Shown piece by piece: positions 1-39,334 of a stretch of 64,000 nt of DNA. The position numbers and the translations under genes were made by a program. Each line of letters opens with the position of its first letter. Position 1 is the stretch's first letter. This stretch comes from Taenia hydatigena (taxonomy: Eukaryota > Platyhelminthes > Cestoda > Cyclophyllidea > Taeniidae). The notes under the pieces were generated by a model that worked only from the letters and a program-made list of their open reading frames with translations, ran no database searches and was not told the origin of the DNA. The stretch covers positions 1 to 64,000 of the forward strand of contig JADWOT020001202.1 in NCBI GenBank assembly GCA_036345935.2, written 5' to 3'.

Positions 1-2700
1 CCCTGTCGAATATGCTGTTTACTTCATCGAAAGTTTCGCCGCTAAACCGAATTTTGTGTTCGAATTGTAGAAAAATGGTGCATTTACCAGAATAGCCATC
101 AGTGAAAGATGTCAGCCATAGCTGAGTGAGCCGTCGTGCTACGGACAACGCCATGGCAGGATCTTCGTTGCATTCGCCACTAAATCGCCACTGCCATCAC
201 TGAGATTTTTGGTGAGTGATTTTCGCATTCTGAATCTTAGACTCTACAAGCATGCTAAACATTGTGTTCATGCATAAGCGAACACAGTTCTGGGAGGTCA
301 GCTGTGTTGGAGCTCCATTTATCTTCCATTGGCATGGTGTCTAATTCTTTGTTAGTCTTTACCATTGCGCACTTGTCTAGTTTTTTGTCTACGAAAGGTA
401 GAATGCTCTAGCCCTTTCATCTCTTTATTTTCTGCTAACTAGTTCGGGTAATTAAGGAGCAAATCATTTGTGAATAAGATAACGGTTGTAAACATAAATA
501 TAGAGGTCTGTTATTTGGCGAACAGTGCCAAGTTATTAGTTCGTGCGGTGTAAGAAGGCTGGCCAGAAGCATCAACTCGTGCAGAGACAAAATGGCACAT
601 ACGAGAGTGATCAAACCGCACTGACAGATACATGTCCGGAACCACAAGCACTGTTGTGCTTTTTTAGATTAGCTGTCGTTATAACCCTAAACAGTTGATC
701 TACCAACCAGCCACTCTTACTGTGCCTGCAAATCCGTGATATTTTAGAGCCTCTGGGAAGAAGAATGCTCTCTGGTTTTTCCCTTTGGGTATAAAAGACG
801 TGTATCTTTGGTTGCATATCTGCCACTTTAGCAGAATAGGTATTTCTTTAACCCCCAATCATTTGGCCTTAATTTTTAGCACATTTTGCACACGACGTTG
901 CTTTAAGATTCGTCTAAGGCTGTTGGAACGTCGCAGGTCTAAGTTTGTGAAGCTAGAGCGCTACACTGGCACAAATTTCATCTGAGTGAAGGCATAACTT
1001 CAAATCAGGCATTCGAACTAACTTCAAGTGCGCCCACATGCAAGTTAGCTAGCTCAGAACGGTAGATGGATGGAATGAAGCCACTTTCTTTAATGCCTAG
1101 CCCTCGTCACTTCGTTGCGAAGAGTGACTTATTGTGGGAGTCCAAATACCAATGCGCTAGTTCCAAGGAAGTCGCGAGCACTTATTTCCTTCAAATAGAG
1201 AGCAGCATTGCTAAGTCAATTTCCTACCAACCGCTTTTTTATTTGATGGCTAGCAGTTATTTGTCAACCACTCGAGATGGCTGATTGGCATAATTATAAT
1301 CTTAAATGAATCTAAATGAATAAAAATTAGCACCGACTGCCTCACGATGAAACTCACTGATAAACAGCCATGAAGTTAGTAAGTGGTCCTTAGAGCAAAT
1401 TTTGGTAGTAGTGTACACAGTTGGCAAATGCTAAAGCGTTCGACACTCTCGATTCAGATTTAAGCGTATAAAACGCTATCGCATCGACTCTTCAAAATGC
1501 ATACAAGAATCTAAGCTCCTGCATCGTAACACACGTGCATGGGTCGTGGTCTTCGTACAGTGCTGTCTGATGGGCCCTGTATTTCTCTCCTCGTAGTTTA
1601 TGCTGCCCAGATTCAATTCGGCCTGTTAACCCGAAAAACTCGAGCTACGTTCAGCTAAATTTGCACAGAGCGCTTACTGCAGAAGAAACAATATCTTCCT
1701 GACCCAATCAGGAATGCTTTTATAATGCCATTTCACTGCAATGAGGATGTCTCACTTCCGAGTTGTTGCCGTATCCCAAAAGCGGCCAATCGGGACACTT
1801 ATCGACCTGATGATATGTCTACCTATTTGGAGGCTTAACATTAACCGAGGAGAGGGAGTCACAAGAACATCTTGTGGCCACCATCAGCAGACATTACCAC
1901 GAATTTGCAGACAATGTGTCTCAATGGTCAACAAACTGACAGCCATGTTTGGGGCTGACAAGTTTCCTTCACGCCTTTCTTAACAACCCTTTCATGTTAA
2001 ATGTTAAATCCACGAATTGAAGCAAAGCCACTTCGTGATTATAGGGAAACCAAAATTATAACTTTTAAAGCACTTCATAGATGTACCACAAAAAGCATAG
2101 AATTGGTATATTTGTATGCTCTGCATTTTCAGCCTAGAAATGCTCGATTAAGCAAACTGAGCGGAACAATGGCCTTCGGCAAATTCCATGGTTCTGCAAT
2201 CAGTGATAAATTTTGAAATCTTATGGGGGCATATTTTGATGCAATATTATTAGGGTTTTCTAAGGTGCTTTTTAGGACGTGTGCATTGTTTCTTTTTATT
2301 CTAGGTCAAATTTATTGATTAGTTCCAACTCCATTTTCACAATCATCGTCGCCTCTCAAAGCGTTCTCTTTGGACTTTGCTGCACAAACCCTGACATGTG
2401 TGATGTAGCGGCACAGCTTGAAGTAACTCAAGCTGAGACAGCAGCAACGACAACATTTTTCCACCTCAGTACTTCAGAATCACCTATTTTAACCAGACGA
2501 GGATATACAGCCTCTAATACCAGAAGTATCTCTTATAGCCCAGGCAAGAAGCCCATTCCTATCCCTTGCTGTAGTTTTGCCTTTTTGGTCATCCGCCTTC
2601 ATGCTTTGCTTTTAGTCACCCGACCATGCATGCTTAGCTACCCTCAGTTTAAAACAAGTGATTTTGTACTTGTTTCCCCATTCTTTTGCCTCCTTTAAAA
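1..2700. other. No supported gene
   Basis: No open frame in this stretch shows a recognisable domain or a convincing chain of splice sites. The longest frame, at about 2279-2698 on the plus strand, is hydrophobic and serine/threonine-rich and resembles no family I know. It could be intron of the CELF-like gene whose last exons follow, but nothing here shows RRM1 or RRM2. Confidence 0.4.
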
Positions 2701-2739
2701 TAAGCTTCTAGAACACTTGGCTCCCTGTGTCCTCACCAG

Positions 2740-3168
2740 CAGTGAGTGTTCGTGGCGTTGCTCAAGTACTTACCCATCATCCCCAACAATCCTCTCCTTG
2801 TGGGTCAATGATAGAGGACTCTGAAGGCTCCAAATTGTTCATCAATATCTCCCAAGGGCATAGTGAAATGCGCCTATTTACTCTTTTCGAGCCGTTTGGG
2901 CGAGTGTTGAGTGTAAAGATATTTGTGATCAGAGAAACAAACCAGAGCAGTGGCTTCGGTGCGCACACACATTAGATTGATTGTTTGCTAATTTCCACTT
3001 TCTCAATTAATTGCAGTGTGTTCACCCACAGGCTTGGTTAAGTGTACAAGTCCTTTGAGTGTGCAGAACGCGATACTTACGATGGGCGGAGAAGTTGTGA
3101 GAAGGAAAGGATTAAAAGTTCAGCTGAAGTACTCCATCAGCATACCTAATTTAAGCTCCAGGCCTTAA
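2740..3168 (+). CDS. CELF/Bruno-like third RRM, last two exons
   Basis: These are the last two exons of a gene ending in an RNA-recognition motif like RRM3 of the CELF/Bruno family, which binds GU-rich RNA and controls splicing and translation. Exon 1 (about 2740-2958) holds EGSKLFINIS, matching RNP2, then FEPFGRVLSVKIFV and RETNQS, close to the family's FxPFGxVxSAKVF and TNQSK. A 58-base intron (2959-3016, GT..TTGCAG) joins in phase to exon 2 (3017-3168), which restores GFV and ends with GLKVQLK, the family's RLKVQLK, before TAA at 3166. Helix 2 reads SVQNAILTMGG against the usual SAQAAIQAMNG. The RNP1 octamer is damaged: the aromatic positions of KCFGFVSF are largely lost. It may be a diverged paralogue or a decaying copy. 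RRM1 and RRM2 were not found upstream. Confidence 0.62.
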
Positions 3169-3438
3169 GCACTGCCATAAGTCCTGTCGGTGTGCTTTTA
3201 AGTATTTTCCTTTTTCTCATGAAGGCCAATTTGAATTATGTATTTTAAGTGTTGACGGTGCGTAGTGGACTGCCGATTAATTCTACAGCTCACTCTCCTC
3301 AGTCCCTATCAGTTTTGTTGAATGATTCATAGCCTTAAGGGTAATTAATCCACCGTATTAGTAGCATTCAAATAAATTTCAAATATCTATTTTGAAAACA
3401 TTTATACAGGCTTTTATTGACCCACTATGATGTTGTAG

Positions 3439-3543
3439 GATTCACCTCTCAGTGTTTGCACGAGTGTAATCAGTGTCCTCACCGATGGTGTTGCCCTCAA
3501 CTCCTACACTTTTGTTGTGTTGCGCGACTACCAGTCTGAATGA
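3439..3543 (+). CDS. Possible second CELF-like terminal exon
   Basis: After the acceptor TGTTGTAG at 3431-3438, an open frame starts with DSPLSV and runs 34 codons to TGA at 3541. Its beginning resembles both the family's DNPVSAQAAI and the SPLSVQNAI of the preceding exon, so it looks like a duplicated last RRM3 exon. The CELF-like frame is phase 0, whereas the upstream donor at 2958 is phase 1, so it cannot be used as a simple alternative to exon 2 in that frame. The phase-1 reading is cysteine-rich and unlike an RRM. A decayed exon duplication is the likeliest explanation. Confidence 0.3.
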   Translation, partial: DSPLSVCTSVISVLTDGVALNSYTFVVLRDYQSE

Positions 3544-6500
3544 ATTTGTGGTGAATGTACTTCACTTAGCTCTACCAAACTGGTGTAAGCAACTTAGCTC
3601 TCCACATTGCGAGTCATGCCCTACACGGGTTTCAAATGCTCCTCTTCGCTTGCTTTGGATTGTGCGAAGTTTCGCGCCTTTAATCGTATCGTCACAAGTA
3701 TTCTCTCTCAGGACTCGAATGATCTACTTTTGATGAGCCCTTCGCTCCTTGCAGCACAATTGTTTTATATTTATAGGGAAGTAGGGCTCCACTGTAACAA
3801 CCATTATGCACATGTAAAATTTCAACATCTTTGATAAATACATATTTTACCACTCTACTGTCGTTTGATTTAAAGGAAGTACTTTGTCAATTTTCCGGGA
3901 TACTAATGGTCACCTGTGTTTGAGGAAATCAATCCCAAGTGCCTTTTAAATAAGACTCTTGGAGGATGCATTCATACTTTTCCTTAACATAGATTTGCAA
4001 AATAAGTATGTGTGTGATCTGTTTGACGAAGAGCATGCATGCTAGGGGAGAAAGTTGCGGTCTCTGAAACTTACTCTCATTTAGCAAACGATGTGAGCAT
4101 CACATGCTTGGTATCTTCTGCAGCTCTCATGCATGATATTTATAAAACATCCAATGGCTATATACGGCAGTGTGTTCTCTTTGAAGGCCATAGTAGAATA
4201 TACTGTCACATATTTGCAAGTCAGTTCAGCAGTTCTCGAAATATTCGGCTGCGCAGAATAACAGAGAAAGTCTAACATTTGACGAGGGTCACCGAACATT
4301 GTGCGATTTTTTAAGTGTAACAAAGCCGCAATTAGTAAGGTTCCTCATTTCTGCCTTGTTTTTTACCATTGCATACAATTCGTACCATACTGGTTATCAC
4401 TAGCGTTTGTCAGGAAATGGCGTCAAATTCTTGGTTGATGCCAATTTATTTGCCACATGTATAGCACTCCAATCCTTCCAAAAATTCACAGTGGACCATG
4501 GTCGGACGATGAATGATATGTGACCGATGTTTGGAAGCAGCAGAGCTATACGTCACTAGTCTGTCATCTGACATTTTCTCCCCAAAGATATTTATTGAAT
4601 GATGACAGCAACCACCCGATAGCGACAACTAAAATTGTTGAATCCCATGCTCACCATCCACTCATCAGTAGCCACTTTCATTGCATCACCCCCTGTGGCG
4701 AGTCACTTTGTTCCATGCGGTGGAGGCAGCTATTCAGTGCTCAGAGCACAGTCTCGCTTAGGAGAAAGATGGACATATAAGGAGAAGACTGTTTGACTGC
4801 TTCTTAGTGTGTCTGAGAGTATATGAATGCGGATCCGCCATTCGCTTGTCTGTCATCGAGGCCAGTGATACCTACAGTGAATGCTTGTGGGTTATAATGA
4901 CCCAAATTTACTTGTTTTGTTTTCGCAAAATTCTAGTTTTGCTGATTTAAAATTTTTACCGAAACCGACTGCATTTCGTTCCACAGAGAAGTTGTTTGCG
5001 CAAGTCGAATGAGGAAGATGTTTGATGGAAGGGACGTCCTGGAAATGTTTTTAAGATTTTTTAAACCTAGTGCTAGTGACCTCGCGAGCAGCGCTTTTAT
5101 TGAAACCCATCCAAATTTAACCCTTCTCACCAGACTCAGCGTCCAGTAAAAGAGGTATCTGTGCCTCTCTGCAAAGCAGGGGGTTGCAATAAGCTTATAG
5201 AGATGATGATCCTTCACAGATAAACTGCTAACTAATCATCCGTGCACTTAAACCCAGCATCGCCATCGCCTTTTGACAGACCTCATTTTGCCGGTCGGCT
5301 CTAAGCTTTGGCGTTTACTAATTGGAAGCTAGTGCAGTTCGATTGTATGGTAAAGAAACTTATTTATTTTCACTGCTATGTTATTAAACGCATCAGAACT
5401 TAACTGCATTCTATTGTTTTGACTGCACTTTTACACTCATTTTCCAATACACTGGTCCAAATTATGCCAAATTTAATTATGTAGGACAAGGCGTGAGTTT
5501 GTTCGAACTGTTTAAACTACAAGCAAGTGACTTCACTTCAAGTAGACGAATTATTATTAAAGAAGGGAAGGAGTGAGAGTAATATTAATTAAATCTAAGT
5601 TTGAGACATGCTAAAGACAATGATACCTGCCATCGGTTCTTTAGTGATGTTACGGCAAGTTGTCAGGTACCAAATCGAATTCCGTCTCCACTCCTGGGCA
5701 TTGACAAGATAGTGGGTAGCGGAGCAAAATCGAGATGTGAGGGAATGTTTGCTCGCAGAGGCGAGGGGACGAAAGTCTCCTTCTTTGGAGCACAGCATTT
5801 CGCTGGTGACGGCGGGGACTCGATGGTAGGGGGCGATCGCATGGCCTTTGTGCACAACAGCAAAGAAGAGCGTTTGTGTCATATTAAGCGCGTCAAATTT
5901 AATTGGACTGAGGCTATTCTCTAATGGGAATAGGATTACCAATCTAGAACGCGACTGTTAATTCCCTTGCAAAATGCATGAGGGTGCTTTTCTTAAACCT
6001 GATTAAATTCCATGGCTTCAAAGGTCTCTTTTATAAACTTAGCACTAAGGCTCCACTAGAAAGGAAATCGGATGTATGCAACGTCGGTATGATGGCATAA
6101 ATATTGCATGGAAGAACGACATGATTAATATGAAGGTCCACAGCGAATCAAAAATAAAATTACAAAAAATTCAATCGTTACTTAAGATTTGCAGGAGAAA
6201 GGAAGGCAGGGACAGCCTTAACTATGACTAAGATGGCAGTAATAATTAATAAAATAATGATAATTGATAAGGATAAAATGCCTTCATTGTGCTCTTACCG
6301 CATAGATCACCAGGCAACTTCTGTTCTCAGACCACATACAATCTATATCTATTTTGTAGTTTTCAGTATTGCAAATCATTAAGAGCTGTACCGCTCATTG
6401 GAAGCGGTTTCCGTAAAAGCCTTGGAAACTAGGTTTGCATTTTTGCGACGTCAAGTTGGGAAAGGCTTACAGTAATTTACAATCCTTTGCGTCGTTTACA

Positions 6501-9500
6501 GATTCGGCTATCAAAAGTTGAATACTTCACCCTACAACTTGGCATTTAACACTTTTCTAAAGACGGGCGATTATCTTAGAAGGAAATCTACCTGCTAGAT
6601 GGCGAGCAATTGTCAATGACCTCAAAAAGAACCACTTACAATCCCAGTCTGAAATTTTGTTCTTTGCTAAGAAATTCACTAATTCTGCTGACATCCTCTC
6701 TATCTCGAATTCACAGAGCAAAGTATGGGTTTTGCCGCATTCCTACCGACAAGTGCAGAAATCCAATGAATCTTGTCAGTACAGAGGGAAATCCTACGCG
6801 TACAGCGTCGAACTCTTACACAGAAATGGGATCCTGCCGTAATGGCGTTTCCCTAATATTCTCTTTATTTACTGATGCCTACTGCATGGACTCAAGCTTG
6901 CTTCAACTCCGAGGTTAGAGCGTGTAATAGACATGATATAAAGGGTGCAATGATAAAATTGATGGCATGAAGATAAGGCAGGTCTGTCCACATCAGGGGA
7001 GTCCCCAAAGAGGTTCACAGGAATGAACCTGATGCCATACAAATGCCAGCAGAAGCTCAGGGAATTCAAATTGCAAAAGATTATTCCAGTGAGCTAGGAC
7101 AAAACCACAACGGTAAGCATGTGTAACCAACTTTAACAGCCGCTTTCATTTTGTGGGCTTGGTTGAGGCCATCGTCCAGGACAAATACGTTTACTTTTTG
7201 CCTATCTTATTGATGCTTACACAGAGAACATTATGGAAGGGCAGGAAGAAGGTGATTGAGCTTTCATGTTTCTTCTGTAAAATAAAAGATGGGAAAGCAG
7301 GCAGCAGCTATGGAGCCAACCCTTTGACTGCCTGATTATGGTTTGGCATTGCGGTTTATTCGCTAAATGGGATAATGGCTACAGGATGAGTGTCCTCACT
7401 TAGTAAAAGGAGGCACTTCCATTAAATATTAATTACGCATATACGCACACTAGAACGCGTCTGCATTGACAAGCTAGGGTCTCTCTCAAGTCGCAATCGA
7501 GTCAAGTCAATGCAGGAAGCCAATTTTAGGCTGCGTTAGTGACATTATAAGCTTAAACTTCAATGTGGCACTTGGATTGGTAGTAAATATTTAATCATGA
7601 AAACAGTCCAGATGGTCAGCAGCTGTACTACATCAAGTAGGCGAAGGGTCGCGTAGTCGCAAGCGGCTTAAAGCAGAGATGGGAAGGAAAGGATGTAGAA
7701 ATATGAACGAATAGTTCGGCAACACTTTTCTTTTGATATATCATCCCCAGCTCTGTTGAAGGAAGAGCTTTGGCCCCCAATTCTTCCCTACCATTTATCC
7801 ACGGACAATACTTTCGTCTTGCAAGCACGGAGGATTTCAATTAAAACCCAATTCGCTGCCTTTGCGATCCATTCCTGATAGCAAAATGTTAAAATTGAAC
7901 TACCTCAGGCGACGAAGATGCCTAAAAAAGGAAAAAAAGAGGTATTGCTTAGATTAACATTAATGCTCACGTCCATCATCACTTGGGCTACGCTAAATTT
8001 GATACGTGTAGCATGAACTGCAGTTTGACAGAAGGTCTTCCTATTTAAAAGAGGTTGAGCATGCTGCCTGCCATTGAACGCTAGAATGTTCCAACAGAGT
8101 AGGCTTTTGCTTTTAAGCTCCTTGAATAAATGAAAATAATAAAGACATTTAAGTGCTGCTTTAACAAGTATAAGAGTACAAAGTCGAAGGAAGTGACAGT
8201 CGAAGTTAAAGGAAGTAATAAGAGGACTTGGTAAACGGGGGGAAGGCAAACGAAAAGGTTCTACGGAATGGAAGTAGAAGAGAAGACAGGAAGGACAAGG
8301 CTTAGAATAGGATGCATTTGAGTAATCTGCAGATGCTAAGATACCACTTTTAATCTGTCTGCATCACGGCACTTAAGTCACACGGTTGGATGAATTTCCA
8401 TTGAAAAATTTTGTGAGGGCAACTCAAGTTGCAAGAATCTAACTAATGAAACTACTTGAAGGAGATATAGCAGTTGCGACGATCAAACCATGGTGACAAT
8501 CATCACCGGAGTTGATGTCCAAATGGTCATTGTGAGCGTTATATTTCGTCTTGATGGAAATTAACCCTTTGGAGGCCTGGCATATCGACACGGGTCAGTT
8601 GAGGCGGGTTTAATAAAAAAAAATGGGCTCTGTCTCGCATTTTGTTAGCAAAGTTTGCGTGAAAACGTTGTCAGCCTTATGGCCATTGGGCTTATGGATT
8701 TCCTCAACCTCGCTCCATAGTTTTGGCAAAGGAGCAGGTTTCGTCGTCTTAAAGGACCTTGAAACACTTTTTTTCTAGCCATGGAACAATCAAAACTGGC
8801 CCTATCGCTCCTTGGTCACTAGGACTTGTATGCCTTGGTCTTTTTAGCGTTTAAAGTTTTTCGAGAGTGATGAGACATGAGACATGAGACATGTTATTCG
8901 CGTTCACACAATTTTTTTCTTGTGCCCAGTAAAAATGCGATGGATGATGTGGACGACATGACAACCCTGATTTGTGATTATTCACTTATGTCCAAGCACA
9001 TGACTTTGAGGCAGGCGCCATGGTTACCAGAGCATGGGTGTGTGATGCATGACAATTCCAGTTTTAGTTGTGATATAGAGCCTTGCCAAAGAATAGACCA
9101 ATCTTAATCTGGTACTGCAATCAAAACCTGACGAGGATAGTCAATGGGCGCGAAAACTTGCTTGAGAAAGGATCGGGACCACCAGTGGTGCTAAATCAGT
9201 GAGTCCTTACACTTATGGTGTAAACAGCTCTCTATTTGCCTCAAAAACTTTAATGTCATTAATGTTTAGTTAATGTTGCCGCTCGGACCTCTACAATAAC
9301 AGCTCATAAGTGTCTATCTGACTTGATGCCTACTTGAACGTGTACAGCTACGCGCTTGCTGACTGAGAACATATTCGCATCTTGTCTTCCCTACTTTTGC
9401 TGTGTCCAAAGTTCAAGGAAGAGCCATTTTTACCCTCTAAATTGTCTTCTCTAACGATGATTAATTTTGTTGATTTCATTTGGTACCTCAAGTAGGAGTA

Positions 9501-10600
9501 GATGGTTAAATGAATGCATGGATAACTGGCGTCAACGCACCAGTTGCCTACCGTTGCCCTGGAAACTAGTGTAGGAGGTGCTGCCATCACCAAGGACGGG
9601 ACTGATATCAAGATTACACTATCTGACAATGATAGAGAATGCATAAATCTACCTAAAATGCGCAGTGTAGCCTGCTAAATAGAACTCTGCATGTCATGAG
9701 CCATTGGGCTGTTAACCCAACTGTGAAATCCTCTATCACAAAGTATCAACGAAACAAGACAAATGTAAAACTCGTTTCAAGTGGGTTCCCTCTTGCATAC
9801 TTGTGGTGTTACCTCTCGAGAGAAGTGCTGGGGCCGTAATGGAGCACAAGGATCATAAATTGCTTGCGAACTTAGGTTCGGAAGCTCAAACACCTAAAGG
9901 TTTATCACATTAAGCGAAACATTATGTAGTTTGTAATGGATTCGACCAAAATTCAACTTTGTTGTGACGCAGACTCCGTGCGTTATCCAATGTGTCTAAA
10001 AGTGGTTGCATGACATGGTTACTAGGCGGAGAAGTCAAATGATGTTCAGTAAGCGAACAAATCTTATACGTCATCCTTAGTAGCTGACAAGAAGTCGCAA
10101 ACCTAGAAACAACCAACTCAGCGATACAAAAATAACAGAAACGAGAAGATTATAAATGAGTTTAGTTTTTGTTTATTAATTTAATCTCCACATAATTTGT
10201 GCGCACCTCTTGTGTTAGATAACCATCAAATCTATGATGACCCACGAAAGCTAGCATCTGAAGCAACCACAAAGCTGCCGCCTAATCATATTTGTTCTCC
10301 TCTTCATTGCAGTCGATTAAGGCTAACAATTTGAGGCTCTAAGGCGGCTGCATTATAACAACATTAAAAGGATTGAATTCAGTGAGGAGAACAAGGCGTT
10401 GCGTGCACACACATTAAACAAACCGCTCCCACCAAAACAATCAAAATTTGGCCAGCGCATTAGGCTTATGAATTGCTCCTGTCACGCAGAATCCAATTTT
10501 GTCGACGCCTAAATTAATTACTTTTGCGCATTAAATAGGGGCGTTAACACTAACCGCTTACCTATAAATTGAACCTGTTTCACCCTTCTCCCACTTTCCT
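3544..10600. other. Long stretch without a supported gene
   Basis: I see no recognisable domain or multi-exon chain here. A less AT-rich patch at 5600-5940 is open in several frames on both strands; the longest minus-strand frame has 115 codons, but none resembles a known family. A minus-strand frame at 7905-8249 is lysine- and leucine-rich without a domain. The stretch may hold upstream regulatory sequence of the receptor gene that starts at 10624. Confidence 0.35.
8871..8893. repeat. Short tandem repeat, unit TGAGACA
   Basis: Three perfect head-to-tail copies of the heptamer TGAGACA, followed by TG. No function is apparent. Confidence 0.8.
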
Positions 10601-10623
10601 AGAGATATCGCCATCATATAGTG

Positions 10624-13165
10624 ATGATCCTAGTCATTCTCCTGATCATCGTAACCACCTTTCGTGTGTACAGTGCGAAAACTGATGCCGCTTCAAGTGA
10701 ACGAAACCTTCTCACGATCTACACCCTCAACCTTGATCCCATCTGCTTGCCCGACGCGGTGCACTTCAACTTCACTCACAGCGTTGCCTCAGCAGTGCGC
10801 TACGTGCGCTCACTGATGCCGACCAACAATGAGACGTTTTTCTTTGCTGTTCTGGGTCATTTATGGGCACCCGGCTGCTCGCTGCAGGAGGCCTCAAGAG
10901 CAAGCACGCTATACGAAATTCTGCAAGATTTACAGGTTGGTTTTGACAGACTTGGACAAATTCACGCGAGTAGCCCGTTATGCACGCGTGTCCTGCAAAT
11001 GTATCCAATTTAAAGGCGAGTAATATACCATCTTATTTACTGTGGCGGCGCAGTGAAGTGGCATCCATTCGTGGGACGGTATCAACTGTGAGCGATGAAA
11101 GTGGCCAGGTTTGAACCACACTTCTCGTGTTAGACCGATTATTTAAAATAGAAGCTAGAATATATTGTGAAGATAGAGAATTGGCTTTTACGATTAAATC
11201 TGCCGTCCCAGTGGCAAATTAGTGGATGTCTGTCCATGGTTTTATATCCGCTCAACAGAGCATTTGCATTTTTCGACACGACATTGTAAATTAACATTTG
11301 ACATTGGCGTACGATCTATCCGACTCGATCAATTTATTTTAACTGGGTATGAAAAGGCATTTAGTGGAACTAATGCTCTTCCCATGCTGCCGCGTTAAAG
11401 CAACGGAAGTGCACATTACTGCAATTAGTAATAAAATAAAAAAATAGGGTGGATTTACGCACTTCAGGAGCAATTGTTCTCTCTGCATTTTCTGTTCAAG
11501 AAAAGCGCGTCGAATTCCACAGGATTCAGCGTGTTACTGGGACCTCCCTTAGCTAGCGACTGCAATTTGGTGAACGAGTGGATCAATCTCGGCAACCCAA
11601 AGGAGCCGCCACGAGATCAACTCTACCAGATCTCCTGCCATTGTCAAGTGTTGAGTTCCGCTTCTGTCTTTGTCAACCACCTCACCGACAGTAGTCGTGG
11701 TTCACTCACTCCATCCACCGCTGCGGTCTCTGTGGCAGTTCATCGCAAGACCATTCTACAAGGCATTCTTGTCCATCTCATCAAAAACGGTTGGAAACGC
11801 ATTGCACTGTTCTACGATATGCATGCTACCATTCTTGACATTCCCGAGATGTTAGATTCAACCCTGTCAGCGCTCCGCCTTTCTCGAAACAGGCGCAATG
11901 TCCTTGAACTAGTGACTAGTGTCGGTGTTACACCAACGACAAACTTTACGAGTTCATTAGAGCCATTGGAAGACGATCTGGATGGTGAGTTTTACTTTGT
12001 TTCTTGAAGGGAGGGTCCAACTCATTCAGTTCCTTCAACTTTTTCTTCAGTGGCACTGATAATGGCAAGGGCAGGAATGGTATTAAACTTCGTGTTGGAC
12101 GTTCAGAACTTGACAAGAATTAGGCAAGGACGGATCGCACTCATGCACGTGGATCCCACGGATATGCTTACTTACGATGTCCTGCGTGCTTGGGGAGCCC
12201 ATTTGTCTTAAGCGGGACCCACATTGGCTGCCGGTCGATCGCTCATCATTGTCACAGCACTGCCCAAGGGTATAAGGATGCAATGCATGCTACCTCATTC
12301 CCTCTCACAATCTGCCTACATGGAAGACGCCAATCATGTAGCCATTGCAGGCTTGTGCATTTATTTGAGATCATAATTCCAGATTGCCGTAAACGACTAC
12401 GCCACTAATGGGCTTCAGTCATAAAATTATGCTTTAAATTAGATGGTTCATAGATCTGTTTTCTGATCGATATGTCGGCCTTTTAGACCGATGTTTTTCT
12501 ATAAGGGATGATAAACCTTAGTTGAGAGGCACCTCGGTGGGAAGCGCGTCCTTGTAACTTCCTGGCTAGGTAAGAAGGAATGAAGCTGGTGTTCAACCAG
12601 ACGATTTCGGCCATGATGTTTGAGGATGGCATACGGTAACATTCTACGGTAGTTTATGTGAGCTACATGACCAATGCCACCTTTAGTAATTTGATCTATA
12701 TATGCATTAATCGTGCGTGTGTGTTTGCACTGATTAGTTAGTTTCCCTGTCGGCGGCGAATCAATCTCTCAGTGGCTAGTGGGGCAGCATTAGCAATGCG
12801 ACTGGTCCAAATTCACTTGCAAGAAGGCGGTGGCAATATCACCTCCTCTGCAACTCTCTTCCAACCACTGCGCACCCTCTCACATATCCAAGTGCCCACA
12901 CTGCCCTCCATTACCTTTCATTACCGTATTGGTGATGGTGATGTCTCACAAGGCATTTTCGATCTTCTTCTCTTCTCCCTCAAATCCAACGTCACTGACC
13001 TGGCTGAGGTTGGAGCCCGAGTGGAGAGGTATACAGACATCTTCAATCTCATTGATGTTATTCATCATCCACTAATACTGCCCCAGTCAAGGAGTGCGAT
13101 GATTTGGCCAGGGGATGGAGAGGGACCTCAACGCACATGCCACTTATTCGCACCTTTTGGATTTG
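10624..13165 (+). CDS. Receptor cyclase signal peptide and ANF-type ectodomain exons
   Basis: The chosen start is ATG at 10624, opening a hydrophobic signal peptide of about 18 residues. Exon 1 ends at the donor ACAG|GTTGGT (10935). Exon 2 (11468-11984) contains VLLGPPLASDCN and IKNGWKRIALFYD, the layout of a periplasmic-binding-protein-like ANF receptor lobe, and ends at GATG|GTGAGT. Exon 3 starts at 12051 with VALIMARAGMV, resembling the family's inter-lobe strand, and continues through RSLIIVTALPKG after an in-frame TAA at 12209-12211. Exon 4 (about 12773-13165) carries SGAALAMRLVQIHLQ and ends before the membrane exon. Several NxT/S sites fit an extracellular domain. The donor of exon 3 is uncertain: 12270 or 12355 would give different joins. 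Confidence 0.75.
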
Positions 13166-13231
13166 GTACGTAAAAGTAAATCCATAGCGCTGCCAAAGGC
13201 GTTCCCTCATCCTTTTGTAAACCTCTTTTAG

Positions 13232-13316
13232 AATCAGTACAGGTTATTCTACTGATAAACCTACTCGGATTGTTCAATGCTGGCCTCATGTACTTGGCGA
13301 TTGTGCTTGTCTACAG
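13232..13316 (+). CDS. Receptor cyclase transmembrane exon
   Basis: An 85-base exon between AG at 13230 and GTAAGC at 13317. It encodes a single hydrophobic helix from about VILLINLLGLFNAG to LAIVLVYR, the membrane span between ectodomain and cytoplasm. It is in phase with the preceding exon, whose last codon completes across the junction, and the terminal arginine fits a stop-transfer end. Confidence 0.8.
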
Positions 13317-13540
13317 GTAAGCCATGTCGCGTATCCTCACCGATTGTGGTCAACTTAGACGGATTGTGTGCAAATCGAAACGCTTCAATTCACTCAAACT
13401 CGTATTTGTGGAAGGTGATTTTACTTTCGATGATGGTGATGGAAACCCATCGGCGAAGCTACCCATGACATGAGGATGTCTTAGAAGAAATAAATAAAGG
13501 AGGAATGCGTTTTAGCTTTAAAGCGTCATTGCACTTTTAG

Positions 13541-13700
13541 TCCTACCGAAACTCAGAGTCGCGAATGGATCCGGTGCCGGGTCCGGATGTCCTCGCATCT
13601 TTCCATGCACTCGCGCATTCTCCTCGAGTCTCTGTTGCAGCACCAAGTATATGTGAAAAGCTTCTACACCGTGCACAAGAGAGGAGGATTGTTCGACTAA
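13541..13700 (+). CDS. Juxtamembrane/N-lobe exon running into a stop
   Basis: This exon follows GCACTTTTAG at 13531-13540 and joins the membrane exon in phase 2. It encodes a basic juxtamembrane stretch, then LLQHQVYVKSFYTVHKRGG, which fits the start of the kinase homology domain just before the ATP-binding strand. The next exon (14445) resumes with VQAYLKK. The expected junction is near KRG at about 13683, but the bases there are GAGGAT and not GT, and the frame continues to TAA at 13698-13700. Either an unusual donor is used or the product ends here as a short receptor without kinase and cyclase domains. Confidence 0.55.
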
Positions 13701-14444
13701 ATGTACGTCTTGTCCGTGTCAACAATGCAAGCTGTACGTACTGTAGAGTAGACAATGCAGTATGCCACTGAGAAGAAATGCTTGGTTCTTAAAAGCCACC
13801 ATGCAGTGCTATAAGCGGGATAGGATTAAGTGATTGCATTCAAGCACTGAAAAAAGCGCGTTTAACAATGACGACGGGCATAAAGCGGTGTACATCTTCC
13901 TGCTTTCTTCCGATGTAACCGAAATTAAAGGCCAGTTTTTGTAAGCAGGATGTGATCTGGCGTCCTGCATTTCCAACGACAGCGGGAAATATACTTTGGC
14001 ACCACTGGTTGTCTCGGTTTGGCTGTACTTCTTGACTTCTGCTTCTCAATTCGTGCGGCTATTAGCAGTAACGTGCTGTCTCGCTAGCTCTCGTGTGTAA
14101 ACATAATTTTCAGTTGCCATTCTAGCCGCTCTAGTTTCGAGTCAGTCAATGCACACATTTCGTCATTCTTCAATGTGGTATTGGCCTCGACGTCAAAGTG
14201 GTAAACTAACCTCTGCGTTCGAAGGTAGTTAATCCAATCCTTTTAGCCTATGCATCTTGCATGGAAGGACACGAACGCTGGTATCGAGTGTGGAATGAGC
14301 ATTGCTACGCATCGATGCAATCGGGGTTTGCCTCGATTCGTTATGATTGGGCTTAAATAATATTGCATTTACTTAGATGCTCTGATCTCAGAAGACTTTT
14401 TGAAACAGCCGCTTATGCGCTTTTTACTTGGCTTGTGGTTTTAG

Positions 14445-16139
14445 GGAGTTCAAGCCTACCTTAAGAAATTGGGCCTACCGCGCATTCTACTGCGCTCACG
14501 GTTGATTGAACACCTTGAAGGACTGCGGGAAATGCGACACGAAAATATTAACACTTTGGTGGGGTGCTGTGTGACACCAGATTCCTTCAGTCTTGTCTTT
14601 CACTACTGTCATCGTGGAAGCCTTCAGGTGATAAATGAGGACCGCTTTAATTTTGTTTTCCATGAACAACCCACCTATATCGCCACTTTCGTATACAACA
14701 TCAATAGCTGCATTTACAGTGGTACGCATGCAGTGCGTACAAAGTCATCCTAGAAGAGGCAAGATATTAGGCACGGTAAGGAAAAAGCAAATATTAATCG
14801 GTACAGAAACTTATTTTGAAGAGTGCAACATCCTAAAAATAGCTCTTAAGCAGCGGGCATGCTCGCTTTGTGAATCGTCCTTTGCAGTGCATTAGTGCAA
14901 TTACCACGCTTTCCATTCTGCTATAATTGCTTCATTGTGGCCGTCTGAAGCTGCTAACTTTTAACCCCTGAAGTATCGTCACTAAAAAATAAGCATGATA
15001 GTTATGCAGGCGGTTACTTCGCCTAGTCTCACACTCCTTGAAATTGTTGTACCACAAAAGTGGCAAGAACTACACGTCTGTAGCTCTAACACAGAATCCG
15101 TTTATGTGCGACGGGCATTTTATGCCATGATACACGGCACACCTTCATTTCTACTTCATGCTTCGTGTAGCAGTTGCTTTTTCGTTGACTTATTTTTCAC
15201 CGCAATTTCGTTTACAGGATGTCATCAACAGCGAAAGTATCACATTTGACTGGGATTTCAAGCTCTCTCTCATGACTGACTTCGTTCAGGTGAGTGGATG
15301 CTGTCTCATGGCTGTTAAACAAAACTCTGCTCCCCTCGTCTCTAATCTGTGTAATTAATTTCGGTGGGCATTATAAAGGAATGGAGTACCTCCATAGCAC
15401 AAGTTCCAAAGCTCACGGAAGACTAAAGTCGACCAATTGCTTTGTCAGCTGCCGATACGTCTTGAAAATTACCGACTTTGGCATCTCCAAGGTCTACAAC
15501 CTAACAGGCAGTTGTCCTTCGATCAAACCTGAAGGTTAGTCGCATTGACCACCCGCCATTGTATTACATCCATAGAAAAATTGTGGACGGCGCCTGAGCT
15601 ACTGCGCGATGAGACAGCGGCTTTGCTTGGAACTAAGCCAGGCGATGTCTATGCATTCGGCATAATAATGCACGAAGTTTTCTATCAGACGAAACCATAT
15701 GGGCCAGATAATATGCAAGTGGAGGAGATTCTAGAACGCGTGATGGGCGAAGAAGAGCCTCCTTTTCGTTCACAGGTGGGTAGTTCTCTTCATCGCAGTA
15801 TGCCGCCATGTTGACTTGGTGATAGCGCATCAGCGGGACAGAATAAGTTAACCAAGGCCTTTTCACGAAACAGCCGGAGGTGTTTAGGGACATGGCGCTG
15901 TTTGTGTCAAGATTTTGTTAAAATTGCACTAAAGGACTCATGTAACATTGCGGTGCATCACACTCTCTTTTGATGGCAAAGCACAAGCCTGCCCTACTCG
16001 CCTTCTTACTTCAGCTCCTTGAAACGGGTGTCTCACCGATTTACATAGACATTATTCAGCGAGCGTGGTCAGAAAATCCTCGACTGAGACCAACATTCAA
16101 GGAGTTGAATGAAGAGATTCAACAGCTGACCAGAGGAAA
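14445..16139 (+). CDS. Kinase homology domain exons
   Basis: Five exons encode the pseudokinase that regulates the cyclase. Exon 14445-14627 has [16 protein letters not shown] and HYCHRGSLQ. Exon 15218-15289 has [15 protein letters not shown]. Exon 15379-15534 has [10 protein letters not shown] and [10 protein letters not shown], matching HGNLKSSNC and LKITDYG. Exon 15576-15775 has [10 protein letters not shown] and [14 protein letters not shown]. Exon 16015-16139 has [13 protein letters not shown]. The catalytic HRD aspartate is replaced (GRLKSTN), as usual in this family, while DFG is kept. Expected GMEYLH continuity fails by one base at the 15289/15379 junction. The stretch 15201-16124 also exists, inverted, at 18488-19411. 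Confidence 0.88.
15201..16124 (+). repeat. Inverted repeat arm A, 924 bp
   Basis: This arm covers 17 bases of intron and then four kinase-homology exons and their introns of the plus-strand receptor gene. It matches the reverse complement of 18488-19411 at 922 of 924 positions with no gaps. The two differences are transitions in introns (15214 A versus G, 15943 T versus C on the plus reading). It ends inside an exon, so the tract does not respect exon borders. Confidence 0.95.
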
Positions 16140-16183
16140 GTGAGTTTGCTATCGTTTATGATCGTCATGCTTGTTTTGCTAAG

Positions 16184-16324
16184 AAAAATGAACATTGTGG
16201 AGCACATGTTCAAAATAATGGAAGATTACTCGAGTCGGTTGGAAGAAGAGGTGAAGGCTCGAACGGACGAACTGGAGAATGAAAAGAGAAAGAAGGAACT
16301 TCTCATCTGTCGTTTGCTGCCTCC
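16184..16324 (+). CDS. Signalling-helix (dimerisation) exon
   Basis: A 141-base exon between an AAG acceptor at 16181-16183 and CTCC|GTGAGT. It encodes MEDYSSRLEEEVKARTDEL followed by NEKRKKELLICRLLPP, the coiled-coil linker that couples the kinase homology domain to the cyclase in all membrane guanylyl cyclases. The family's LYQILP ending is seen as CRLLPP. Both junctions are in phase. Confidence 0.88.
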
Positions 16325-16467
16325 GTGAGTTTCCATCCTCATCAATTCTAGTTAGCAGCATTGGATGTTATGATTTTATTCTGTAGCTTTGCATTTGTGT
16401 ACGGCCGCACAAGACTAGACCCTGAACAATGGGCGAGTAGATAAATAAAATCAAGCTGGAATTGTAG

Positions 16468-17978
16468 GGTTGTGGCAGAAGCGTTGAAGGCGGGGGTCGC
16501 AGTGGCTCCTGAGACCTACGATGAGGTGTCAATCTATATTAGCGACATCGTCGGCTTCATAACCATTTCTGCAATGTCCACACCACTGCAGGTTGCTGAT
16601 CTTCTTAACGACTTGTACACATTGTTTGACATGATGATTGCACACTACGACGTCTACAAGGTGAGTTTAATTGAAGATGCTTTAGGCTGCCCACTGGCAC
16701 AGATTAGACTCCTAACTCACTACACTCCTACATGCTTAAATAAAAGTTGCTGCAGATTAAGCTTTATTAACTAAACGAACTATGAACTAACTGATGTCCA
16801 CTTTTGCTTAATCTCACTAAAGTCGAAAAATACAACTTGTAAACCATTCGTTCAACTTGTCTAAGAGGATGACAATCTGGCGTGTAATGCAAATACTCGG
16901 TTGGATTTGCGGGATCTCATGCTACGTTCCTTTACTCACAGCTCTCACCGAACCACAAACACAGATGGAACAGAAGTGCTCTCTATGCCCACCATTAAAC
17001 GCTAGATTCACCCTTTCTAGGTGGAAACGATAGGAGACGCCTACATGGTGGCTTCGGGATTGCCAGTCCGTAATGGACGACGCCACGCAGCTGAGGTCGA
17101 AACTATGGCCCTCGATCTGCTTAGTGCTTGTGGCGCTTTTACCATTAAGCACCTGCCACAAGTCCCCTTGAGGCTGCGCATCGATCTGCATAGTGGTTAG
17201 TTTAATGGATATCTGACCTCGTTTCTTTCCTAGTCTGTGTGTGCAAGATGCATATCAAGGTGGCCAAACAAATGTCAAAGGCATTTGCGCAATGACTGCG
17301 GCAAAAGACCAGTCTGGGCCTAAAATTCAACTTAGCTATAAGCCGACTTCATGCTGTGATTCATGCCTTGTCACCATTGTCACACAGGTGTTGCATCACC
17401 TCACACACTCTTTTGCAAGTATAACTTTCCATTTGGGACGATATTGTGTCCGCTGAGTTGTCATTAAACAGGTGAAATGTGCTGATGGCTTCAAACAAGT
17501 ATGAAGCACTGACCAATTAGCATGCAGCAAGCGTTCAGGAGCTGACTTTTAAATAACGTATTTAAACTTCGCCTCTCATTGGGACTGCAAACTATGAAAT
17601 CAGTTGCATAACATTGAAGAAACGATGCTCTGTTTACTTGCAGGACCTTGCGTTGCTGGTGTCGTAGGGCTTACAATGCCTCTTTGGTGATACCGTTAAT
17701 CGAGCACTGAAGATGGAGTCATCTGAAGCCGGTTTGTGGCCATCCTTTTTGCCTACTTCCTTTTCACCATTACTCAAACGTAAAATCCTTTCCTTCCAGC
17801 ATTCAGAATACACATCAGCAAAGCGATAAAGGAAATATTGGATGAAATCGGAGGCTACCATGCTGAGCATTGTGGCTCAGTTGAATTCGAAGGCGGTGTG
17901 GAGACCAAAAGTTACTGGCTCACTGGAAGCGACAATTTTCACAAGCCTTTACCTCAACCGCCTTCATTAACAGTGTAA
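16468..17978 (+). CDS. Guanylyl cyclase catalytic domain exons, with a deletion
   Basis: Four exons (16468-16660, 17021-17195, 17644-17731, 17800-17978) encode a class III cyclase domain. SDIVGF at 16541 and GDAYM at about 17033 supply the two metal-binding aspartates; VETIGDAYM keeps the guanine-selecting glutamate. After GVVGLTMP the family's [10 protein letters not shown] should follow, but about 11 bases are missing at 17679: the frame hits TGA at 17688 and LFGDTVN continues one frame over. The lost RYC holds the cysteine that helps select guanine. In the shifted frame the usual TASRMES reads RALKMES, so the catalytic arginine is lysine. RIDLHSG replaces RIGIHTG. The last exon ends [10 protein letters not shown] and proline-rich residues, then TAA at 17976. 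Confidence 0.85.
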
Positions 17979-18414
17979 GCAATGTCGCCTGCTATATGAT
18001 TACCTCCTGAAAACTAGTTTTACATGGCTTTGTCGATCGCATCACAGCATTTTGCTACGCTTCCTTTGATACTTTGCGGAATGAGCGTGGCCAGAGGTCT
18101 AATTGACTGCCTGTAAATCATGAAGCAGTTCAGCAACTAGATTTGTAGGCAACAGGTAAAAATGAGCCCCTTTGAATAATAGGTGGTAGACAGTGTTAGA
18201 ATGGGATAGTTTTATGCAGCCTTTGCCCGTAACGATGCAGACTAATATAACACAGGAATTATCGGAAAGCCTAGTATTAATCGGGTAATAAGGGGTACAA
18301 ACTAAGCTAAGCTACATTAAACGCATCGATAATCCACAAGGTTTAGTTAGCGCTGCGTCCTTCACTCTAGGCGCACTACGGCTGTTTTGTGGGCATGACT
18401 GTGATAATTGCCCA
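17979..18414. other. Spacer between convergent receptor genes
   Basis: About 435 bases separate the stop of the plus-strand cyclase from the minus-strand receptor stop. No open frame or repeat is apparent. Both 3' ends should lie here; no clear polyadenylation pair was identified. Confidence 0.4.
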
Positions 18415-19771
18415 CTACGGCACAACAGACTTTATTAGTGCATTATCAAAATAGACTTCGCAACATCTTGCGCCAATTGCTTTATGATGTTGAATCTCTT
18501 CATTCAACTCCTTGAATGTTGGTCTCAGTCGAGGATTTTCTGACCACGCTCGCTGAATAATGTCTATGTAAATCGGTGAGACACCCGTTTCAAGGAGCTG
18601 AAGTAAGAAGGCGAGTAGGGCAGGCTTGTGCTTTGCCATCAAAAGAGAGTGTGATGCACCGCAATGTTGCATGAGTCCTTTAGTGCAATTTTAACAAAAT
18701 CTTGACACAAACAGCGCCATGTCCCTAAACACCTCCGGCTGTTTCGTGAAAAGGCCTTGGTTAACTTATTCTGTCCCGCTGATGCGCTATCACCAAGTCA
18801 ACATGGCGGCATACTGCGATGAAGAGAACTACCCACCTGTGAACGAAAAGGAGGCTCTTCTTCGCCCATCACGCGTTCTAGAATCTCCTCCACTTGCATA
18901 TTATCTGGCCCATATGGTTTCGTCTGATAGAAAACTTCGTGCATTATTATGCCGAATGCATAGACATCGCCTGGCTTAGTTCCAAGCAAAGCCGCTGTCT
19001 CATCGCGCAGTAGCTCAGGCGCCGTCCACAATTTTTCTATGGATGTAATACAATGGCGGGTGGTCAATGCGACTAACCTTCAGGTTTGATCGAAGGACAA
19101 CTGCCTGTTAGGTTGTAGACCTTGGAGATGCCAAAGTCGGTAATTTTCAAGACGTATCGGCAGCTGACAAAGCAATTGGTCGACTTTAGTCTTCCGTGAG
19201 CTTTGGAACTTGTGCTATGGAGGTACTCCATTCCTTTATAATGCCCACCGAAATTAATTACACAGATTAGAGACGAGGGGAGCAGAGTTTTGTTTAACAG
19301 CCATGAGACAGCATCCACTCACCTGAACGAAGTCAGTCATGAGAGAGAGCTTGAAATCCCAGTCAAATGTGATACTTTCGCTGTTGATGACATCCTGCAA
19401 ACGAAATTGCGCCTAACCTTGATCATTATGATCCACACAGAGTCAAGCTGCAGAACTCATTAGAAAAGGAGGGGATTCAATCTAAAGTGCAATCATTTTA
19501 AAGTCACCCACCCATAAAATTGTTGTAGATGCAAGGGACTGAATCCCGCGATAGAAAGGAGCCATGCCTCATTGAAGCAGAGGAGTAAAAACCAAAACAC
19601 AATGCAATTAAAATTAAAAATATGATTATGCACCACTGATATTCAGCGGAATTCTCCCCCAAGCCTCTATTGCACTCCTCATTCGCACTGACAAACGTGC
19701 TCTTTGCCTGCCACAACGGCATTGAAAAGGTGGAACTCATCCCATGGCACCGCGTCACACTTTGCAGGCTT
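18415..19771 (-). CDS. Cyclase-less receptor with kinase homology domain (paralogue)
   Basis: A second receptor-like gene points towards the first. Its own membrane exon (about 19771-19512) has an extracellular [14 protein letters not shown], then helix [19 protein letters not shown] and a short basic tail. It is followed by kinase-homology exons at 19394-19323, 19233-19078, 19036-18837 and 18597-18415, all within or starting in the inverted repeat and identical in exon sequence to the plus-strand gene. After the repeat ends, the frame reads on for about 20 codons and stops at 18415. No coiled coil or cyclase follows, and no N-lobe exon matching 13541 or 14445 lies between membrane exon and repeat. 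The same one-base phase loss at the 19323/19233 junction is present. If expressed it would be a receptor without cyclase; it may instead be a chimaeric pseudogene. Confidence 0.5.
18488..19411 (-). repeat. Inverted repeat arm B, 924 bp
   Basis: This is the reverse-complement partner of 15201-16124, separated from it by a 2363-bp spacer that holds the cyclase exons of the plus-strand gene. Outside both ends the sequences diverge at once. On the minus strand the arm keeps the same four exons: 19323-19394, 19078-19233, 18837-19036 and 18597 downwards. Confidence 0.95.
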
Positions 19772-19984
19772 CTAATGGCTTCAACACAAATTCATCAGCC
19801 ATCTTCGACCACGAAAATGTACTTCGGCATAATTACTGCGTTGGAGGCTTGGCACACACCCTTCGTAGACTAGGAGAGTTAAAGGGTTGGCACACGACCT
19901 CAAGTGCCTATTCGTTGCCTCCACTTTACGCAGTACAATTCACAATTCTCATCCCTTTTGCTCACCCATTCAACCACCTCTCAC

Positions 19985-20026
19985 CTTACGGGTAAACGAA
20001 CTCGACCCACAGAAAGATCCACGTAC
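19985..20026 (-). CDS. Possible 42-base ectodomain exon of the minus-strand receptor
   Basis: Between CTTCCGCAG and GTAAG|GTGAGA on the minus strand lies a 42-base segment. One frame reads YVDLSVGRVRLPVR, which could be a strand near the end of an ANF-type ectodomain. The splice signals are strong, but the segment is too short for firm recognition. Confidence 0.3.
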
Positions 20027-20099
20027 CTGCGGAAGCGGAATGGATTCAAACGCAACGGTCCTAATCACGTAGTGCGATGCAACAATCAAACTTCTGGTT

Positions 20100-22890
20100 G
20101 GCGTAGGGACACTTAATCAAACAGCAGCATAAATCGAGTCGAATTTCTACCAATGTGTAATGGATTAGCAATTTGAATTTCACATTTCTGCAAAAATATA
20201 AGTGTTGTACATACCAAGTAATGATTAGTGTAGTGTTCACGAATAAAAATCCATCCCACCACCTGCTATCACCTGGAAGCACTGGAAATCACTTAAAGTT
20301 TCGGCTGAAAAATCCAGTCCTTTTAGGGTTAGGCTTCACTACTTTAACTTGTTGGGATCAAAAGAAACTCTTTCCTTGCCCCGAGTGGAAACCAGATTCA
20401 AAAACCAAGCAGAAGGGACAGGAAGAGAAATAGTGGGTACAATAAGACAATGGTCTGCCATAGAGAGAAATTAGTCGCTTAAATCTAGTGGCACCTCTGC
20501 AATATTACCACTTCTATCTCTCTCTGAAATAATATGTTATTTTTAAAATATTGTGTAGATGAATGATGAGGACACCGATTTCACCCCTTGATTTTGAAAA
20601 CGGATTTTTTAAATGGCTCTTGCAACTCTTTTATGAGTAGCACTTTAGCTGCAGTCTCTAAACAAATTCCACAGTCGTGCTTTAAATTGCTCTTTACGTA
20701 ATTTGTTTTAAATTATATTTCAGAGGCTAGCTTAAAACACCGTCTTAGAAATGATAAAGCTTGTTGAATCTGTTTTTGCTGATTTATTAAATGGCAGTTT
20801 ATGAGGATCAGAGGGACATCAAACAAGTGTTTAATTTTAATTTAATTGGAATGATACCACCGTTTACACAAAAAGGAAGATGTCAAGTGCGCAATCTTTC
20901 GAAACCTAATTAAAGCATGGAATCGTTTATAATGCATAGACTAAATGGACATATGCCTCTTCAGAAGAAATATGTGTGTTCAATGCCTGGGGATTAGCCA
21001 AAACACAAGAATTTGCCTCATTACAAAACGCTACGGCTATACATTAATCCATATACCCACTTGATGCTTCTGCTTCATCTGGATGCGTACCCAGCAGCCT
21101 TTTTAAAATAAAGGAATGCTGATATTCTACTGTACTTAAAAAGCAGTTATTTTTATATGCTTAGTAAATAAGGTAATGAAGGAGGTGATTGGGACTGCAT
21201 CAGTAATTGAACTCGATACCACTGCCCGCGCTGCCGAAGAGATGACAAGTTATTTTTTATGTAGGATAACATATATGTGTACTGTGTAAAAATGGAGATG
21301 ATTTACTTACAACAACAATTCATGATGCATAGGTATCCATGAAGTACAGATAAGAAGAGGTTTACACCACTTGGTCGCGGTCCGAAGTGTAGAAATTTGC
21401 ATACTACAGAAATTAGCAAAGAGTTACGCATTGGGAGCAATGTTGCACTGAATGGAGCTTGCAAGGATTGATAATTGGATGTTATGTAGGAGCGATTGGT
21501 GGGCACAACATGTAGGTGGCAGTGTAAAATAAATCAAGTCGCCAGGTACATCAAGCGTTGGGCTAACCTGACTGAAGCTAGTAAATTTATCCGGCGCGTA
21601 GGCGGGTTTGTATTTATAAAAGCTGCGGGACTTCTGTATGAATAAATCAAAGTAGATGGAATGAAAGTTGGATGCGCTGACATACGGTGTAGCATAGGAG
21701 AAGGAAGATGAAGGTAATGTTGGTATTGAAGGGGAGGTGTAGCTCAGAATGTTGAACGATTGTGCGGAGAATGCAAATGATAAGACGGTAGTGTGTAAGA
21801 CGCACTTACGTGGGCCTTGAATGGAGGGCATTATGCCAAAGCCATTTCGACTTGTGATTTACATGTCCGCATCTGATTCTATCCACCCCCCATCTTGGTC
21901 CAAAATGTGTAAAATAAAGAGAATTTTGAGATAACCAGCAGTAAAAGAGGTTTATGTATGGGTTAAAATCTACCTGACGTCTCTCTTGGGAGGTTCATGT
22001 TAACGCAAGCGATGCGTTATCATCCCCGGTCACAAGATTTACAGAATAACTAGCATGAAAACAACTCATTGAGCATAGACGAAACGACTCGATTAAAATT
22101 CACAACGCCTAACCACGCAATCGTGAATTTTATTCAGCTGCTGCAGGTCATTCGATCGCTATATGTTCACACAGCTTTTGTGATTTCTGGTCACCGCTGC
22201 AAGGACCTGATGGCATCACGGCGTGGATCAAACTCGATTACTCTAAATTCATTGTAGCCATTAGACTGAGCATTGCTACTTCTCCGTAGTCCATTCGAGA
22301 ATGCAGGCCTTGTATTCACAGCGTATTGGTTGCTGTATATCTCCTTACCCCCTTCGAAAATGATGTTGAGCCTTAGTTTTAGTTGAATCATGTAAATAAT
22401 TAGTCTGCACTGCCAAACCAGCTTTGGCCTTCTCATCATTAGAACCGAATGGTTCCTCAAGCACTAAACATCGGTATGCATTTTGTTAGTTTTTCTATCA
22501 ATCACATGGTTTCATTTTTTCCTGGTTTCTACTAAAGGTCGCTTAGAAAAAACGATATTTGAGCAGCTGTTTTACACCCCCGCTAACTTGAAATTCTGCC
22601 CAATGCAGCCTATTTTTTCGATTATTATGCTCCCTTTGGGTATCAAAAATGCTTCCTATAAGACAAATGACGAACAAAATAGTCGCTAATCAAATTGATC
22701 CGTTTTCTTTCTGGGTGAAACTTTTCAAGCCACTTTGATTCACGCAGCGTTTTCCATGATTTATGCAGTGATGCAGTGATGTTTCTGAGTTCTCCATTCT
22801 CTGATCTGCAGCATGGTATAATAAATCATATTTTCAGGATTTTGTGCAGGATGCCAAAAGCCGTAGCATATAATCAGAGCATCTTGAACG
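20100..22890. other. Stretch with little recognisable content
   Basis: Apart from the possible ectodomain exon at 21.57-21.83 kb, no domain or exon chain was found. It is probably intron or upstream sequence of the minus-strand receptor and the 3' flank of the zinc-finger gene that follows. Confidence 0.3.
21570..21831 (-). CDS. Possible ectodomain exon of the minus-strand receptor
   Basis: An open minus-strand frame contains LSFAFSAQSFNILSYTSPSI and later a serine-, phenylalanine- and tyrosine-rich stretch. SFNILSYTSPS resembles the WNIPVLSYTSTSP segment of ANF-receptor ectodomains. The exon probably ends at GTCAG|GTTAGC near 21573. Position and strand fit an upstream exon of the receptor at 18.4-19.8 kb. 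Similarity is short, so the call is tentative. Confidence 0.3.
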
Positions 22891-39200: not shown

Positions 39201-39300
39201 TAGCAGCAAGGATATGTGTATTAATAAGCTTAGCTTGAGTAATTCTTGAGTCGGATAGCATTAAGGACTTGGATTCATTTTTGTAGGAGATGTCGGACCC
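36300..39300. other. Stretch without a supported gene
   Basis: No recognisable domain was found. A possible short minus-strand exon near 38.95-38.86 kb follows GATGCAG and runs 22 codons to TGA; it could be a terminal exon of the minus-strand gene upstream, but it is too short to judge. Confidence 0.3.
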
Positions 39301-39334
39301 TCGCAGTAAATAAGACCAGATCAGTTTTACTCAC

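Follow-up and report, generated by a model that had tools for sequence, protein, structure and literature searches.

A backward fragment of a receptor guanylyl cyclase gene in Taenia hydatigena points to a probable recent complex rearrangement

Results

A cut-off receptor guanylyl cyclase gene

The stretch of DNA analysed here, which we call the window, consists of bases 1-64000 of contig C718 of the Taenia hydatigena genome, and the genome searched comprises 306 Mb in 1354 contigs. The left part of the window holds one copy of a multi-copy gene family (family A), 90% identical to a copy on contig C398 over 1425-8882 and 94% identical over 8892-18486, with the following features.

1425..18486, plus strand: family A copy, in which a receptor guanylyl cyclase gene keeps its introns and flanks; colinear with C398 up to 18486, where it is cut off
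12751..13168, plus strand: last extracellular exon, ends read by eye
13237..13317, plus strand: transmembrane exon, its hydrophobic stretch and both ends judged by eye
14446..14627, plus strand: kinase-homology exon upstream of the arm, from exon reading and Pfam
17676..17700, plus strand: 11-bp deletion with frame shift in a cyclase exon, from comparison with fetched copies

The joined exon translations match Pfam PF07714 (kinase) and PF00211 (class III cyclase), and this pairing of a kinase-homology with a class III cyclase domain places the gene among the receptor guanylyl cyclases. The best solved structure for the exon translation is atrial natriuretic peptide receptor 1 (E 2.8e-139), and the best protein match is from Taenia crassiceps (82% over 93%). 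Pfam gave no match for the ORF enclosing the last extracellular exon, nor for 10 window ORFs. Like receptor guanylyl cyclases of the natriuretic peptide receptor or retinal GC type, the window copy has a transmembrane exon, a kinase-homology domain, a coiled coil and a cyclase domain, but unlike them it is frame-shifted in one cyclase exon, has one splice acceptor displaced and lacks the 3′ exons. The 11-bp deletion is absent from all of the 18 copies, among 20 fetched, that span the site. The changed acceptor, at 15377, occurs in both arms of the inverted repeat described below and in none of the 20 other copies. With the deletion, the shifted acceptor and the loss of sequence beyond 18486, the window copy is not an intact open gene, and because both arms carry the acceptor change and the window copy has the deletion, the source was probably already decaying when it was copied.

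A 924-bp inverted repeat within the kinase-homology exons

The 3′ half of the gene copy and the DNA just beyond its end are arranged as follows.

15201..16124, plus strand: left arm, source of the inverted copy, from arm alignment, exon reading and Pfam
15218-15289, 15379-15534, 15576-15776 and 16015-16124 (of 16015-16141), plus strand: kinase-homology exons in the left arm
16125..18486, plus strand: spacer, holding the remainder of that last kinase-homology exon together with the coiled coil, introns and cyclase exons; the would-be hairpin loop
18488..19411, minus strand: right arm, inverted copy of 15201-16124, from alignment and shared private states

Direct alignment of 15201-16124 with the reverse complement of 18488-19411 gave 924 bp without gaps and with 2 mismatches, so that the inverted repeat reported in a preliminary description of this DNA, 922/924 identical, was reproduced to the base in the assembly. 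At 15214 the left arm has A and the right arm G, and at 15943 T in the left arm stands against C in the right. By our own exon reading these two transitions fall in introns, in agreement with that description. Its other observations on the arms were all seen again: the left arm starts in an intron (the next exon runs from 15218), its other end falls within exon 16015-16141, and similarity is lost immediately outside the 924 bp on the flanks of both arms. The arms are separated by a spacer of 2,362 bp and by the single base 18487, which is part of neither the family A side nor the inverted copy. A repeat of this length at such identity is far beyond chance. With a seed of 20 and a minimum of 60 bp, it is the longer of two inverted repeats in the window, the other being a 104-bp pair of 87% identity.

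The preliminary description had offered a very recent inverted duplication as one explanation, and comparison with other copies of the gene bears this out. The arms differ at 2/924 sites, against 32/924 for the nearest of 20 other copies (on C78), and 16 alignment columns hold a state common to both arms and absent from all 20 (the copy on C1 covers only 577 columns of this alignment). When five further stretches of 924 bp from the window copy were set against 17-19 copies, they showed 11-20 private states, so the arm does not stand out in this count. From the closeness of the arms and the 16 shared private states, we conclude that the right arm derives from this very gene copy, an origin that is established in the assembly; as judged by the alignment, it is a copy of the window's own left arm. 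At 15214 the left arm alone deviates, with G in 19/19 other copies that have a base there, and this change, private to the left arm, therefore seems to have arisen after the copying. At 15943 the C of the right arm is also found in 2/19 other copies.

Copies of the gene elsewhere in the genome

The gene with its introns and long flanks occurs in about 40 places, mostly on small contigs. The 924-bp tract matches at least 38 other places (44 rows, of which 2 are the window's own, with some places split), a lower bound since 40 of 191 candidates were scored, and the spacer is likewise multi-copy. Further family A places outside the 38 were seen on C176, C1036, C345 and C208. We fetched and compared 20 of the 38 places; the remaining 18 have at most 95% identity to the 924-bp tract. 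For nineteen of the 20, the match to the window begins right at the edge of the fetched piece (10.2-10.4 kb), and the copy on C1 matches only from 14745. The window's match to family A stops at 18486 at the latest, bar chance extensions of a few bases. Beyond that point 16/20 copies run on with sequence that they share with one another, and the other four (C967, C1278, C8 and C546) end earlier, each at a different place. Since most copies run on where the window stops matching, the window copy is, on this comparison, one that has lost its 3′ end at 18486. The copy on C546 (C546:13500-23400, piece 1810-2268) breaks off at window position 17785 and is followed by a stretch resembling window 7127-7584 at 79%, so another cut-off copy also has a mosaic junction.

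On four contigs, C398, C285, C1200 and C745, two near-complete copies lie within 25 kb, always tail to tail and 7-17 kb apart. The C1200 partners differ at 5/921 sites, are mutually closest and share 9 pair-private states; in the other three pairs the partners differ at 23/924, 31/924 and 86/886 sites and are not mutually closest.

Three junctions join the gene copy to an unrelated repeat family

Beyond the right arm the window continues into a repeat family unrelated to family A, which we call family B. The order and orientation of the pieces are established in the assembly: after 18486 come base 18487, family A backwards from 16124 to 15201, family B backwards and then family B forwards.

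18486..18488, no strand: junction J1, family A to 18486, one base (18487), then the reverse complement of family A from 16124
19410..19411, no strand: junction J2, 2-bp overlap (CG) of A-derived and B-derived sequence
19410..20136, minus strand: family B piece of about 725 bp, in the opposite orientation to that of the B copies compared with it
20134..20136, no strand: junction J3, 3-bp overlap (TCG) of inverted and forward B
20137..22485, plus strand: family B, forward, colinear with C545 as far as compared

In other B copies, the sequences corresponding to 19412-20136 and to 20137 onwards stand in the opposite relative orientation, and in two fetched B copies they are separated by DNA that has no match in the window (370 bp on C297 and 381 bp on C545). 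The short junction features are likewise observed in the assembly. J1 has a 1-nt insertion and no clear microhomology, and the overlaps at J2 and J3 were seen in fetched copies, and in further copies the ends of the matches likewise overlap. As whole junctions, all three were found in the window only, among 40 of 128 candidates scored for J1, 40 of 152 for J2 and 33 of 33 for J3.

The preliminary description had placed a second receptor gene at the right arm, and here the comparisons gave a different answer. The DNA right of 19411 has no match over 80 bp at E 1e-20 in the 20 fetched receptor loci and none over 60 bp at E 1e-8 in C398:76700-105600. A tblastn search of 18487-64000 with the exon peptides returned the arm exons and otherwise only 3 weak matches (E 0.19, 0.68 and 0.87); for the membrane exon and one cyclase exon, the absence right of 19411 is read from the DNA comparison only. 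A tail-to-tail gene pair in the window was therefore ruled out, as these comparisons show no receptor sequence beyond 19411. A transposon with long terminal inverted repeats had been suspected because the 924-bp query aligned over its full length to many places, and it was also ruled out: the family runs from 1425 or before to 18486 and beyond, and among the scored candidates J1 and J2 occur only in the window. Small inverted repeats are not a general habit of these loci, for a further 24 fetched loci totalling 229 kb, mostly family A copies and a non-random sample, contain none of at least 60 bp.

Other features of the window

A second repeat family occupies 36800-41200, with a block at about 37736-40557 that is inverted relative to many other copies. 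The 104-bp inverted pair (37736-37839 and 40145-40248) lies inside this block and recurs in many copies. Contig C171 has a 98-99% identical version of the second family in a seemingly palindromic layout. At C1200:87499-88483, an inverted duplication of about 150 bp lies at a second-family junction (query 1-816 on the minus strand next to 667-834 on the plus strand) and is possibly a further fold-back scar. A tRNA gene lies at 60549-60621 on the minus strand (Rfam, 58.6 bits).

Discussion

We think it reasonably probable that this decaying gene copy, one of about 40 in a receptor guanylyl cyclase family, recently underwent a complex rearrangement. Assuming that the contig is correctly assembled here, we infer a fold-back or template-switch (MMBIR-like) mechanism acting in a single event. 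A broken or stalled DNA end at family A position 18486 would have folded back and paired with its own strand, or with that of the sister, some 2.4 kb upstream, and 924 bp would have been copied backwards, from 16124 to 15201. A switch to a family B template would then have allowed about 725 bp to be copied on the minus strand, and a further switch to the plus strand of B would leave the product in the order cut-off A, inverted A shard, inverted B shard and B. One fold-back or template-switch event is the simplest account, and the same three junctions could also come from two or more separate events, such as an insertion and a later inversion of 18487-20136. Among simulated random junctions, overlaps of at least 2 bp arise in 16% and of at least 3 bp in 5.5%, so the overlaps at J2 and J3 do not prove the mechanism, and overlaps of 2-3 bp are weak evidence for it.

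The rearrangement is most likely an event of a known kind. In human fold-back inverted duplications, the single-copy spacer measures 766-70,466 bp (median 3,428), and of 21 sequenced junctions 13 show 2-8 bp of inverted microhomology, 5 carry insertions and 3 fall within homologous repeats, as given in the accessible part of the source (PMC3907307). The window likewise has an inverted copy next to its source and, between them, a spacer that is single-copy in this arrangement and that at 2,362 bp falls inside the range of those 21 sequenced cases. The human events, as that same part presents them, resemble the window in the inverted copy by its source, the spacer of a few kilobases, the short insertions or microhomology and the joining to other sequence (PMC3907307). 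They differ in that 924 bp rather than megabases was copied here, in that a second inverted shard follows, in the involvement of a tapeworm repeat family and in that J1 is without clear microhomology. Templated insertions offer a second likeness, namely short shards chained in both orientations at one junction with short overlaps at the breakpoints. MMBIR and FoSTeS are names for such microhomology-mediated template switching. Unlike in MMBIR, however, the microhomology in the window is not above chance, and a role for replication would be by analogy only. Our literature search found no paper on inverted segmental duplication in Taenia genomes.

An artefact, in which A and B, with inverted shards between them, were linked by a chimeric long read or by a misjoin among abundant repeats, is an unlikely explanation that nevertheless deserves weight. 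Families A and B are both multi-copy, each junction was found once only among the scored candidates, and C718 is exactly 223,000 bases long, one of 11 contigs, among 17 looked at, whose lengths are whole thousands, which looks like automated cutting. (The eleven are C718, C398, C285, C745, C65, C1284, C370, C1278, C546, C723 and C348, as if cut during scaffolding.) The arms, however, are not identical, and the difference at 15214 resembles a mutation after copying, which a sequencing error or allelic difference could look like; three base-precise junctions with short shards would also be unexpected from a simple repeat-graph misjoin. Moreover, version 1.2 of the T. hydatigena genome used PacBio, Canu and Pilon, and the methods, in the part of the source at hand, mention no whole-genome amplification (PMC8384839). 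That version has 294 scaffolds and the genome 63% repeats, again by that part (PMC8384839); the 1354-contig genome analysed here would be a later Hi-C version. We regard it as rather improbable that the right arm is instead the remnant of an old tail-to-tail partner, of the kind seen on C398, C285, C1200 and C745, of which deletions left 924 bp. On all four contigs where two near-complete copies lie within 25 kb, the pair does stand tail to tail, and the C1200 pair is nearly identical and mutually closest; but the three other pairs have diverged, so partners are not usually homogenised to 99.8%, and this course would need two deletions and an inversion. Gene conversion between two tail-to-tail receptor paralogues, also put forward in the preliminary description, could give a tract of near-identity with sharp edges, as is seen. 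It would leave a diverged paralogue flanking the tract, yet at the right arm, an isolated fragment with no adjoining receptor sequence found, it is family B and not family A that begins at 19410-19412, and we find gene conversion scarcely credible.

The arms could in principle form double-stranded or hairpin RNA, which their geometry would permit. If transcription ran through 19411, the potential stem would be 924 bp unspliced, or about 540 exonic nt if the left arm were spliced (542 nt if the exons are taken 1-2 bases wider at two of their ends). Mu killer of maize, described in the part of the source at hand as derived from a transposase gene and as silencing that gene, is likewise a partial inverted duplication of a multi-copy gene potentially transcribed into a hairpin (PMC3440606); it is a transposase-derived silencer, whereas the window locus is a receptor gene shard known from sequence alone. 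By this analogy, read-through of the cut-off gene might yield a long hairpin and siRNAs against the receptor family, and a selected hairpin-RNA locus of this sort, like Mu killer, would fit a cut-off source gene with an inverted piece of itself downstream, about 40 potential targets and an arm with about 540 exonic nt. Flatworms have retained Dicer and genes of the siRNA pathway, and parasitic ones are without piwi, according to the accessible portion of one source (PMC8191739), and tapeworm silencing of mobile elements is an open question in the corresponding portion of another (PMC6880638). However, an ATTAAA hexamer at 18316, before the right arm, could end transcripts; the junction was found once, is young and shows no sign of conservation; and the simplest reading requires no function. 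Selection for a hairpin thus seems very unlikely to us. Fainter still is the prospect of a newborn locus, a natural tapeworm counterpart of Mu killer seen no more than 2 mutations after it arose, whose inverted shard would give dsRNA silencing the family of about 40 copies.

The fold-back or template-switch reading would make the locus a recent complex rearrangement dissected at base level in a repeat-rich tapeworm genome, in which a receptor guanylyl cyclase gene is found, introns included, in about 40 places. If its arms are silent, it would be an ordinary repair scar; if they are transcribed, it would offer a direct test of whether parasitic flatworms, which have no piRNAs, use hairpin RNA against an expanded gene family.
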